Positions 3,696 through 11,051 of a stretch of 64,000 nt of DNA are shown in pieces; position 1 is the stretch's first letter; each line of letters begins with the position of its first letter. The position numbers were made by a program, and so were the translations under genes. The stretch spans positions 3,835,001 to 3,899,000 of the forward strand of contig NC_019974.1 in the NCBI RefSeq assembly GCF_000328685.1, written 5' to 3'. This DNA is from Natronococcus occultus SP4. Lineage in GTDB: Archaea; Halobacteriota; Halobacteria; Halobacteriales; Natrialbaceae. Under the pieces are notes generated by a model. It was not told the DNA's origin. It worked only from the letters and a program-made list of their open reading frames with translations, and did no database searches.

Positions 3696-5699
3696 CTAAT
3701 CGAACTTTTCGAGCAACGTCGCGTAGAACGAGCGTTCTCGGATCGATTCGGACTCTTGCTCGGACTCGTCGGCGAGTTTCTCCACGATCAGTTCGGGCGT
3801 CGAGCGGGCCAGCCGGTCTTTCACCGGCGAGCGATTGACCTCGAGTTCGCCGTCGACCAGCCCGACGGCCTCGATCCCGTCGACCGTAACGTCGAACCCG
3901 GCCGTCTCTCTGATCTCGCCCGCCAGGTGAGAGACGAAGACCGCGGTCGCGCCGTTGTCCTCGAGCGCCTCGAGGATACCCGCGATGATCTTGGCGCTGG
4001 CGCCGGGTTCGGTGATGCTCTCGAGTTCGTCGACCAGTACAAGCGACCCTTCCCCGCTTTGTGCCAGGTCTGCGAACTCCCTGACCGTCGACTCGAAAGC
4101 CCCCGCATCGAGGGTTCCCTGGGTCTTCGCGTGGTAGTGAAGATCGTCGAACCGCTGGAGCCGTGCGTCCTCGGCAGGCACCGGGAGCCCCATGTGGGCG
4201 AGGACGACGACGCTCGCCACCAGATCCAGCGTCGAGGTCTTCCCGCCGCTGTTGACCCCCGACAGCAGGGCGACGCCGGCAACCTCGTAGTCGACGGGGT
4301 CGATCGCCTCGACGGGTTCCTCGAGCAGCGGGGATCGACCGCCCTCGATGGCGAACCCGACGTCGTCGTCGACGACCGTCGGCATCGTACACGCGAACTC
4401 GTCGGCAAAACGGGCGACGGCGAGCTCGACGTCGAGTTCGAGCGCGTCACGGACGAGCTGTCGGGCAGCCTCGCGCTGATCGGCAAGGTCGGCCGCGAGC
4501 TCCCGCTTGAGTCGACTTGCGCGTCGCTCTCTGGCCGTCGTCAGCTCGGTCCGTAAGCGAGCGACCGCGTCCTCGTCGCGCTTGACCGGAAACGTCGGCT
4601 CGTCGGTGAAGATCCGACGGGCCAGCTCGGCCTCCCCGGGTTCCAAGGCGAGTGCGTCGCTCACGTGCTCACGGGCGGCCTCGACGGCGGCCGCGTGCTC
4701 GTCGGCCAGCTCTCGGGAGAGCAGCGAGTCGACACCCGCGCCGCGTTCGACCAGCGACAGCAGGTCCGACCCCTCGATTGTGACGTCCTGTTCGCGGATC
4801 GCCTCCCGGAGGTGATCGTTGGCGACGGTTTCGGCCGTCCCCACCGCGGCGTCGACGTCGTCTGCGGCCGCCGTCAGCCGGTCGAGCTCCTCGTCGCCGG
4901 CGACGGTTCCGTCCGCTGCGAGCCGGGAGAGGCCGCCCTCGAGTGCCGCGAGGTCGTAGTCCGAATCGAGCGCCGCGACGCGGTGAACCTCGATCGCAGC
5001 CCGGATCCGGTCGCGGTTGCGCGCGAAAAACGCCAGCGATCGCTCGGGGACGACTTCGGCCGGGTTCCCGAGCGCGTCCGGTTCGACGCGAACGTCGCCT
5101 TCGACGGTGATCCCCGCGAACGATTCGTCGAGTGCGATCACCGTCGCGTACCCGCGGGCCAGTTCGGCCAGTCCCTGGGCGTCCTCGACGACCTCGACCG
5201 GGAGTTCGGGGATCGCCTCCTTGGCCTCGGCGTAGCGTTCCGCGTCGGTCGTCGCCAGACAGCGCTCGCGGACCCGAACGTCGTCGGGTTCCCGAAGCGG
5301 TTCGACGCCCTCGAGCGCCTCGAGGACGTCGGGGTCGGGGTCGCGGGCGAGCGCGTCCTCGGTGAACGCCTGCACCTCCTCGATGCGCGAACGGCGGGCG
5401 CTTGGGTACAGCGTCTCGAGGCGTTGGGACGCGTAGTCGGTAACGGTGCGGTCTTTGAGTAACGCGAGCAGACTCCGGTAGACCTCGCGGGCCCGGTCGG
5501 TTGCGAGGAACTCGCCGGGATCGTCGTGTTCGTGTCGGATCGCGCCGCGCGCGATGCGAGCGGCCCGGCCCTGCGAGATACCGGGTGCCGACGCGATCGC
5601 CGCGACGTCGCCCGTTCGCAGCGCTCGCTCGGGATCGTCGAGGGCCGACAGCGACCGGGCGGTCTTCTCGCCGACGCCCGGGATCGACTCGAGGTCCAT
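3696..5699 (-). CDS. MutS-family ATPase with N-terminal helix-hairpin-helix domain
   Basis: 667 aa. Residues 1-55 form a helix-hairpin-helix DNA-binding region (two runs, SIPGVGEKTARSL and SAPGISQGRAARI). A helical, clamp-like middle follows, then a MutS-type ABC ATPase at about residues 470-620. The P-loop is GVNSGGKTS near residue 481, Walker B is SLVLVDELES near 553, and the signature-like region is EPGASAKI. Canonical MutS has GPNMGGKS/T, so the Met is replaced by Ser here. The protein lacks the N-terminal mismatch-recognition domain of MutS1 and has no C-terminal Smr nuclease domain, ending instead in an acidic tail. It is therefore closest to the MutS2/MutS5 class, with HhH supplying DNA binding. 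Likely role is recognition of recombination or branched DNA rather than post-replicative mismatch repair. It is transcribed alone. Confidence 0.85.
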   Translation of the reverse strand: MDLESIPGVGEKTARSLSALDDPERALRTGDVAAIASAPGISQGRAARIARGAIRHEHDDPGEFLATDRAREVYRSLLALLKDRTVTDYASQRLETLYPSARRSRIEEVQAFTEDALARDPDPDVLEALEGVEPLREPDDVRVRERCLATTDAERYAEAKEAIPELPVEVVEDAQGLAELARGYATVIALDESFAGITVEGDVRVEPDALGNPAEVVPERSLAFFARNRDRIRAAIEVHRVAALDSDYDLAALEGGLSRLAADGTVAGDEELDRLTAAADDVDAAVGTAETVANDHLREAIREQDVTIEGSDLLSLVERGAGVDSLLSRELADEHAAAVEAAREHVSDALALEPGEAELARRIFTDEPTFPVKRDEDAVARLRTELTTARERRASRLKRELAADLADQREAARQLVRDALELDVELAVARFADEFACTMPTVVDDDVGFAIEGGRSPLLEEPVEAIDPVDYEVAGVALLSGVNSGGKTSTLDLVASVVVLAHMGLPVPAEDARLQRFDDLHYHAKTQGTLDAGAFESTVREFADLAQSGEGSLVLVDELESITEPGASAKIIAGILEALEDNGATAVFVSHLAGEIRETAGFDVTVDGIEAVGLVDGELEVNRSPVKDRLARSTPELIVEKLADESEQESESIRERSFYATLLEKFD

Positions 5700-10107: not shown

Positions 10108-10175
10108 CCGAGCTAACGCGATCGGTGGCCGCCGAACGACAACGTACTTTTGCCCGTTCGGTTCGAACGAGGGCC

Positions 10176-11051
10176 ATGATCGAGGCGAAACTCGAGGACG
10201 CACGCGCGGACCTCGAGAGCCGCGACGGCGTGTTGGTCGCCTTCTCCGGCGGGGTCGATTCGAGCGTGGTGGCCGCCCTCGCGGAGGACGCGCTGGGCGA
10301 GGACGCGGTCGCCTGCACCGCCAAAAGCGAGACGCTGCCGGAGGCCGAACTCGAGGACGCGCGGCGGGTCGCCGACGAGATCGGTATCCGCCACGAGATC
10401 GTCGAGTTCTCCGAGCTCGACAGCGACGCCTTCGTCGAGAACGACGACGACCGGTGCTACCACTGTCGGACGATGCGACTGGGCGAGATGCTCGAAGCCG
10501 CCCGCGAGCTCGGGATCGAAACGGTCTGTGACGGGACCAACGCCGACGACCCGGGTGCGGGCCACCGTCCGGGGCTGCAGGCCGTCGAGGAGCTCGAGGT
10601 CCACTCCCCGCTGCTGGCCCACGACATCACCAAAGCGGAGGTTCGCGAGATCGCCGACCGGTACGGCCTCTCGGTGGCCGACAAGCCGTCGATGGCGTGT
10701 CTGTCCTCGCGCATCCCGACCGGGCTCGAGGTCACCGAGGATCGCCTGACGAGAGTCGAACGGGCGGAGGCGCTGCTCCGACAGTGGGGGTTCGACCAGT
10801 TCCGCGTCCGCGACCACGATGGGCTAGCTCGTATCGAGGTCTCGCCCGACGAGCTCGAACGGGCGCTCGAACTCGAGTTCGTCGAGACCGTTCGCGAGGA
10901 GCTCTCGGAGATCGGGTTCGACCACGTCACGCTCGATCTGCACGGCTACCGGACCGGGAGCGTCAGTCCCGGCGGGGAGAGCACGCACGACGAGAGCGAT
11001 GCCGGCGACGACACGGTCGTCGAGGACGTCTTCGCGACGGAGTCGAGCTGA
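10176..11051 (+). CDS. larE: ATP-dependent sacrificial sulfur transferase LarE
   Basis: 291 aa; the ATG at 10176 is chosen because the PP-loop then falls at residues 23-30 (FSGGVDSS), as usual for LarE. The family donates sulfur for the nickel-pincer nucleotide cofactor of lactate racemase and related enzymes, adenylating the pyridinium carboxylates. The single Cys at residue 175 in MACLSSRIPTG is at the place of the sacrificial cysteine of the Lactobacillus enzyme. Another cysteine pair (CYHCR) lies near residues 94-97. Other typical parts are CDGTNADD and the C-terminal FDHVTLDLHGYRTGS. LarB and LarC are not in the window. The Glu/Asp-rich tail is a halophile feature. Confidence 0.9.
   Translation: MIEAKLEDARADLESRDGVLVAFSGGVDSSVVAALAEDALGEDAVACTAKSETLPEAELEDARRVADEIGIRHEIVEFSELDSDAFVENDDDRCYHCRTMRLGEMLEAARELGIETVCDGTNADDPGAGHRPGLQAVEELEVHSPLLAHDITKAEVREIADRYGLSVADKPSMACLSSRIPTGLEVTEDRLTRVERAEALLRQWGFDQFRVRDHDGLARIEVSPDELERALELEFVETVREELSEIGFDHVTLDLHGYRTGSVSPGGESTHDESDAGDDTVVEDVFATESS

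Follow-up and report, generated by a model that had tools for sequence, protein, structure and literature searches.

A haloarchaeal MutS5 ATPase with an N-terminal RuvA-like helix-hairpin-helix module, a probable clamp on branched recombination intermediates

The 64,000-nucleotide stretch of Natronococcus occultus SP4 DNA analysed here (the window; NC_019974.1, positions 3,835,001 to 3,899,000) carries an ordinary, near-universal haloarchaeal MutS5 gene. The protein, of a known kind and here in its Natronococcus version, probably clamps branched recombination intermediates in an ATP-gated manner rather than repairing mismatches. We put the probability that it is a dimeric, ATP-gated, non-cutting DNA-junction clamp of the archaeal MutS5 family, operating in recombination or gene conversion, at roughly 0.6. 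The layout established by sequence analysis and modelling comprises intact Walker A and B motifs and switch histidine, a MutS/MutS2-like predicted core and a RuvA-like helix-hairpin-helix (HhH) module, with no detectable Smr domain. What the analysis adds is the RuvA match, the overlay on MutS2 and MutS, an insert specific to the subfamily designated type A below, and the absence of the type B paralog from the host genome. The gene and its parts are as follows.

3696..5699, minus strand: coding sequence of the archaeal MutS5-like ATPase, 667 aa
5547..5696, minus strand: (HhH)2 module, RuvA domain II-like, residues 2-51 (Pfam HHH_5, family profile against RuvA)
5310..5507, minus strand: first helical part of the MutS core, residues 65-130 (overlay on MutS2 chains)
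5085..5270, minus strand: small alpha/beta (Rossmann-like) insert, residues 144-205 (AF2 model, alignment)
4398..5051, minus strand: second core part with lever and presumed clamp, residues 217-434 (AF2 model, MutS/MutS2 overlay)
3804..4379, minus strand: MutS-type (domain V) ATPase, residues 441-632 (Pfam MutS_V, PDB sequence matches)
4233..4259, minus strand: Walker A GVNSGGKTS, residues 481-489 (sequence, 27-row alignment)
4026..4043, minus strand: Walker B LVLVDE, residues 553-558 (sequence, alignments)
3702..3800, minus strand: C-terminal helical hairpin STPELIVEKL ... FYxxLLEKF, residues 634-666 (AF2 model, overlay, tails)

The reading frame opens with an ATG whose methionine occupies the same alignment column in 26 of 27 rows (the remaining row, L035, has a TTG codon), and 66 loci together with whole-genome searches show that the gene is real and conserved rather than a chance frame. 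Of the orthologs found, the N. jeotgali copy is the closest, at 93%, and the H. salinarum ortholog (L057) shares 68% identity with the window protein; it is presumably the MutS3 that the available part of one source describes as homologous to the MutS2 subfamily (PMC2816208), in a species for which another source, likewise available in part, counts three MutS proteins (PMC9997560). In the Halobaculum litoreum ortholog (L067, 6001-7976) the matched stretch is not readable in one frame. The MutS-type ATPase with a GVNSGGKTS motif, as read from the letters in a preliminary description of the gene, stands: Pfam MutS_V matches at about residues 477-592 (8.2e-10; 39.4 bits against a cut-off of 30.2), the Walker A sequence is invariant across all 27 rows of the haloarchaeal alignment, and both Walker B (LVLVDE) and the switch His, in the sequence SHL, are intact. 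The genome holds three MutS_V genes, namely the MutS5 gene and two members of the MutS1 clade.

An AF2 model built on the 27-row alignment (mean pLDDT 84.7, pTM 0.80; pLDDT < 50 in the poorly predicted Walker A loop at residues 484-486) returned MutS2 and MutS as its top Foldseek rows. In VIA overlays, B. subtilis MutS2 (7qv3_v) gave Z 25.9 and rmsd 5.7 over 426 aligned residues, model 65-667 against MutS2 1-517, and the Thermus MutS2 core (7vuf_B) gave Z 24.7, model 67-665 against 2-487, with MutS and MutS-beta rows tying with the MutS2 rows at Z of about 25. Core, lever and ATPase of bacterial MutS2 thus overlay on the window protein from MutS2 residue 1 onwards, and since the overlays start at model residues 63-67, equivalent to MutS2 residues 1-2, the HhH module precedes the point where MutS2 begins. 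Bacterial MutS2 differs in carrying a C-terminal Smr domain, whereas none was detected in the window protein, and an HhH module stands at its N-terminus; its Walker A motif is GVNSGGKT, as against GPNTGGKT in two bacterial MutS2 rows, and its score with the NCBIfam mutS2 model, 94.7 bits, does not reach the cut-off of 400. With MutS1 it shares the domain V ATPase and the overall core, but not the Walker A sequence, which is GPNMSGKS or GPNMGGKS in five MutS1 rows; connector domain II of MutS1 has no Pfam match, although the window protein has, elsewhere in the chain, the alpha/beta insert, whose fold assignment is tentative.

For Smr and for MutS_I to MutS_IV, including the mismatch-binding domain I, Pfam gave no match in the window protein up to E 10, a search in which the HMMER filters drop most weak matches. 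The Smr model likewise matched in 0 of 116 haloarchaeal genomes, in agreement with the absence of Smr from archaea; among 14 control genomes it matched in 9. A hidden Smr or mismatch-binding domain can therefore be set aside, as none was found in the Pfam, NCBIfam, genome or tail searches, and the originally noted lack of a C-terminal Smr holds. A function as a ribosome-collision factor, like that of B. subtilis MutS2, would accord with the appearance of the MutS2-collided-disome structure 7qv3 among the top structural rows; we nevertheless judge it very improbable, given that the overlay is limited to the MutS core, which MutS1 shares at the same Z, that Smr is lacking, and that the HhH module points to DNA. 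Even less credible is a reactivase-like or other non-DNA ATPase resembling KamC: KamC is the top NCBIfam match and at 95.5 bits scores slightly above MutS2, but both scores lie far below their cut-offs (300 and 400), and the protein has an HhH module and is near-universal in haloarchaea.

HhH is a general DNA-binding motif. The N-terminal HhH pair of the preliminary description was recovered by HHH_5 above the Pfam cut-off (about residues 1-51; 2.2e-06, 28.5 bits against 27), and the model predicts the module with a pLDDT of about 88-93; its first hairpin, PGVGEKTA, is standard, and the second, PGISQGRAARI, is degenerate, its second glycine missing. When the profile of the 32-row family was searched against the PDB, RuvA was the top match of the HhH part: the best 60 of 69 matches include RuvA chains of 11 different sequences, at E values from 8.6e-6 (7oa5_A) to 8.6e-4 (8gh8_A), ten of them ranking above UvrC (7.6e-4), with weaker matches to Rad51 (0.0068), topoisomerase V (0.0079), RadA (0.089) and XPF (0.17). 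For the single window sequence, UvrC was the sole PDB match of this part (E 0.051), and the NCBIfam ruvA model matched at E 0.0042 (16.7 bits against a cut-off of 85). We consider the RuvA likeness, as judged from these profile and sequence matches, modest; the window protein would share the (HhH)2 module with RuvA domain II, but has it fused to a MutS ATPase. Averaged over 27 haloarchaeal rows, the HhH block is less acidic than any of the four others, with a charge of -0.016 per residue (range -0.088 to 0.070) versus -0.08 to -0.14 for the others, the next being the first core block (mean -0.080, range -0.123 to -0.027); the lever helices of the window protein, residues 377-440, are nearly as neutral. 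A literature search, which covers subscription journals thinly, so that the HhH module may already be published, returned no paper joining MutS5, archaea and helix-hairpin-helix.

The alpha/beta insert, missing from ten type B rows, folds on its own into a small beta-alpha-beta-alpha-beta unit (pLDDT 86.1). In VIA it comes closest to designed Rossmann 2x2 folds (Z 7.2), followed at Z 5 to 6 by rows of T7 primase, topoisomerase I and small Toprims, all of them scores too low for a relation to be claimed, and Foldseek gave no significant match (best E 0.058). Inspection by eye of the 32-row alignment revealed no catalytic Glu or DxD of Toprim common to the type A rows. In view of weak fold matches among the VIA rows listed and no shared catalytic residues, we dropped the idea of a nuclease or an active Toprim.

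The two helices of the C-terminal hairpin span residues 634-649 and 653-666 in the model. Among tail rows picked by GVNSGGKT, all 114 unique type A tails, 102 from haloarchaea and 12 from elsewhere, have the motif FYxxL(L/K/R)x(K/R)F, 7-37 residues downstream of STPELI(V/L)x(K/R)L; this spacer is 10 in all 12 non-haloarchaeal tails, and the turn length varies in haloarchaea. A reading of FYxxLLxKF as a partner-binding peptide was abandoned, as both the model and the alignment of the other subfamilies make the motif the second helix of the hairpin. MutS offers an analogy for a C-terminal dimerisation element, and by that analogy the hairpin is presumed to be one.

A search with the window protein gave matches in every one of the 116 genomes sampled from the class, and 115 contain the ortholog (best match ≤1.9e-149, in one piece or in pieces spanning most of the protein); G021, the sole genome without it, has a best match of 1.2e-41, to a paralog; type B is present there. 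In a wider sample of the phylum, the A1 profile found matches at 1e-5 in 95 of 148 genomes, in many of them over the ATPase only, and in three families (f11, f17 and f25), presumed to be methanogens or relatives, there are rows matched over the HhH as well. To classify these proteins we used an alignment of 32 chosen rows (A2), in which Pfam finds HHH_5 in 19 members and MutS_V in 32, and a tree of 42 ATPase rows covering about 260 residues around Walker A, with just two MutS2 and five MutS1 rows and with long branches flagged by the program. Both distinguish four kinds in the archaeal family. Type A, which includes the window gene and spans haloarchaea, f11, f17 and f25, combines GVNSGGKT, HhH and the alpha/beta insert (clade support 99/94); type B has GANSGGKT and HhH without the insert, and among the rows here is found in haloarchaea only (100/100). 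Type C proper (L137, L138, L139 and L143, all of family f13) has GANSGGKT in proteins that start after the HhH, so that junction binding cannot be pinned on that module; type D (f14) is divergent, and L140, which the tree label 'C' also covers, branches basally and has the HhH. Haloarchaeal type A joins its non-haloarchaeal counterparts rather than type B, which makes the A/B split look more ancient than the haloarchaea.

The archaeal family is separated from MutS1 and MutS2 by a 100/99 split on this tree, long branches being flagged, and the MutS1 clade (100/100) excludes the window protein. Neither of the two results that would have told against the preliminary description, a concealed Smr or mismatch domain in profile searches or clustering with MutS1 on the tree, was thus obtained. 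Its notion of an exchange of Smr for HhH, on the other hand, finds no support: both MutS2 rows lie across the supported branch, Smr is found in 0 of 116 genomes, and four type C relatives have neither HhH nor Smr. The same tree bears on a role as a mismatch-repair accessory of MutS1 and MutL. Membership of the MutS ATPase family would suit such a role, as would the annotation of plasmid-borne paralogs as DNA mismatch repair protein, but domain I was not found by Pfam, the archaeal clade stands apart from MutS1, and a review, in the part available, sees no apparent repair role for the MutS5 subfamily in other organisms (PMC7776575); we consider it improbable.

The type B paralog is present in 104 of the 116 haloarchaeal genomes at 1e-150 and was not found in a whole-genome search of N. 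occultus itself, and every sampled haloarchaeon has at least one HhH-bearing MutS5, of type A or B (116/116). Mutual exclusion of the two types was considered and dropped as uninformative, as A is missing from 1, B from 12 and both from 0 of 116 genomes, where chance expects about 0.1 genome. Two type B genes (G029:C1:468968-470722 and G066:C15:57-1811) contain one in-frame stop each, a possible decay or assembly error, and in two genomes of family f2 (L135, L136) the type B gene lies a few kb from a MutS1-type gene.

No recombination-gene neighbourhood was found around MutS5 in 62 haloarchaeal and 12 other loci. Eight window genes were searched against the 62 loci with full flanks: a gene that we take to be LarE-like (window 10173-11051; matched in Pfam by NAD_synthase, Asn_synthase and further families of PP-loop type) is found no more than 6 kb from MutS5 in 28, often directly upstream and divergent, a DUF6789 gene recurs in 16, and the remaining five neighbours recur in 2 to 6. 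Clustering of genes from both sets of loci, with crude ORF calling that makes several clusters antisense frames, listed 22 clusters, of which two besides MutS5 mix the sets (8+1 and 5+3). Of the type B loci, two plasmid-borne genes adjoin genes encoding a bacterio-opsin-activator domain (L149) and a GAF domain (L150), respectively, and a third locus fetched, L151, has no such adjoining gene. In H. volcanii, mutS5b (HVO_1354) is near HVO_1357, a HalX/GAF/BAT/HTH-10 protein (PMC7824242, in part). From these like neighbours we infer that type B corresponds to mutS5b and type A to mutS5a (HVO_0191), H. volcanii being known here from the literature and not from sequence.

Archaeal MutS5 proteins (P. 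horikoshii MutS5, H. volcanii mutS5a and mutS5b) have a MutS-type ATPase and neither a mismatch nor a Smr domain, and archaeal MutS5 has a junction-stimulated ATPase and is not known to have nuclease activity. The subfamily of the window protein has in addition the N-terminal HhH pair and the insert, P. horikoshii MutS5 being compared by description only, and the name MutS5 for the window gene rests on haloarchaeal papers rather than on alignment with that protein. The H. volcanii set comprises mutS1a, mutS1b, mutS5a and mutS5b, according to the available part of PMC7776575. As cited from FEBS J 2017 in the accessible text of PMC11276520, P. horikoshii MutS5 binds Holliday junctions, and eukaryotic MutS-gamma (MSH4-MSH5), likened here by its proposed junction-binding role (a cited FEBS J title) and not by sequence comparison, would be a functional parallel. 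The same text describes an H. volcanii gene-conversion screen with deletions of 22 proteins and survival as read-out. It names six deletions without effect, neither mutS5a nor mutS5b among them, so by elimination both would belong to the 16 with reduced survival; mut deletions range from 3% to 156%, and both mutS5 genes can be deleted without growth defect (PMC11276520). Because both genes are in the affected group, the gene-conversion argument is independent of the A/B naming. In addition, mutS5b is up in perchlorate (PMC12175516, in part). P. furiosus MutS2 is described, in the accessible text, as having ATPase and DNA binding but no specific mismatch repair activity (PMC2943090).

These data also bear on a MutS2-like recombination suppressor that dismantles early intermediates or promotes their cleavage instead of stabilising them. 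The window protein overlays the MutS2 core, and the MutS2 proteins of Helicobacter and Thermus bind to branched DNA (PMC3200294, in part). However, Smr was found neither in the protein nor in any of 116 haloarchaeal genomes, no other nuclease family is among its Pfam matches, and deletion in H. volcanii lowers, again by elimination, apparent gene-conversion success (PMC11276520); suppression is hence unlikely, if less so than the other alternatives. Involvement in branched DNA or recombination control, as guessed in the preliminary description, fits the RuvA-like HhH, the clade apart from MutS1 and the junction and gene-conversion data of that source, as far as available; the distinct archaeal role it envisaged essentially restates what has already been proposed in print for MutS5.

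In the clamp model that we favour, two subunits would dimerise via the ATPase domain and the C-terminal hairpin, the HhH pair of each would grip DNA near the branch point, and the lever and clamp would enclose a DNA arm, with ATP binding and hydrolysis closing and opening the clamp on Holliday junctions or D-loops. The clamp may thereby stabilise junctions and steer their resolution by the separate nucleases Hjc, Hef and NucS in the setting of recombination and copy-equalising gene conversion. MutS5 itself would neither cut DNA nor sense mismatches, the latter falling to the two MutS1-type proteins of the genome.

The name MutS2 is misleading for haloarchaeal MutS5 proteins, and the RuvA-like HhH tip and the subfamily-specific insert deserve notice. 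The handling of Holliday junctions in archaea ahead of their resolution is an unsettled matter, as is the way in which polyploid haloarchaea even out their genome copies. Speculatively, the haloarchaeal and methanogen-side MutS5 branch may have gained a RuvA-type tip and a Rossmann-like docking insert and so become a single-polypeptide 'RuvA-MutS' clamp, which would organise Holliday junctions for Hjc and Hef and drive genome-copy equalisation in polyploid archaea.
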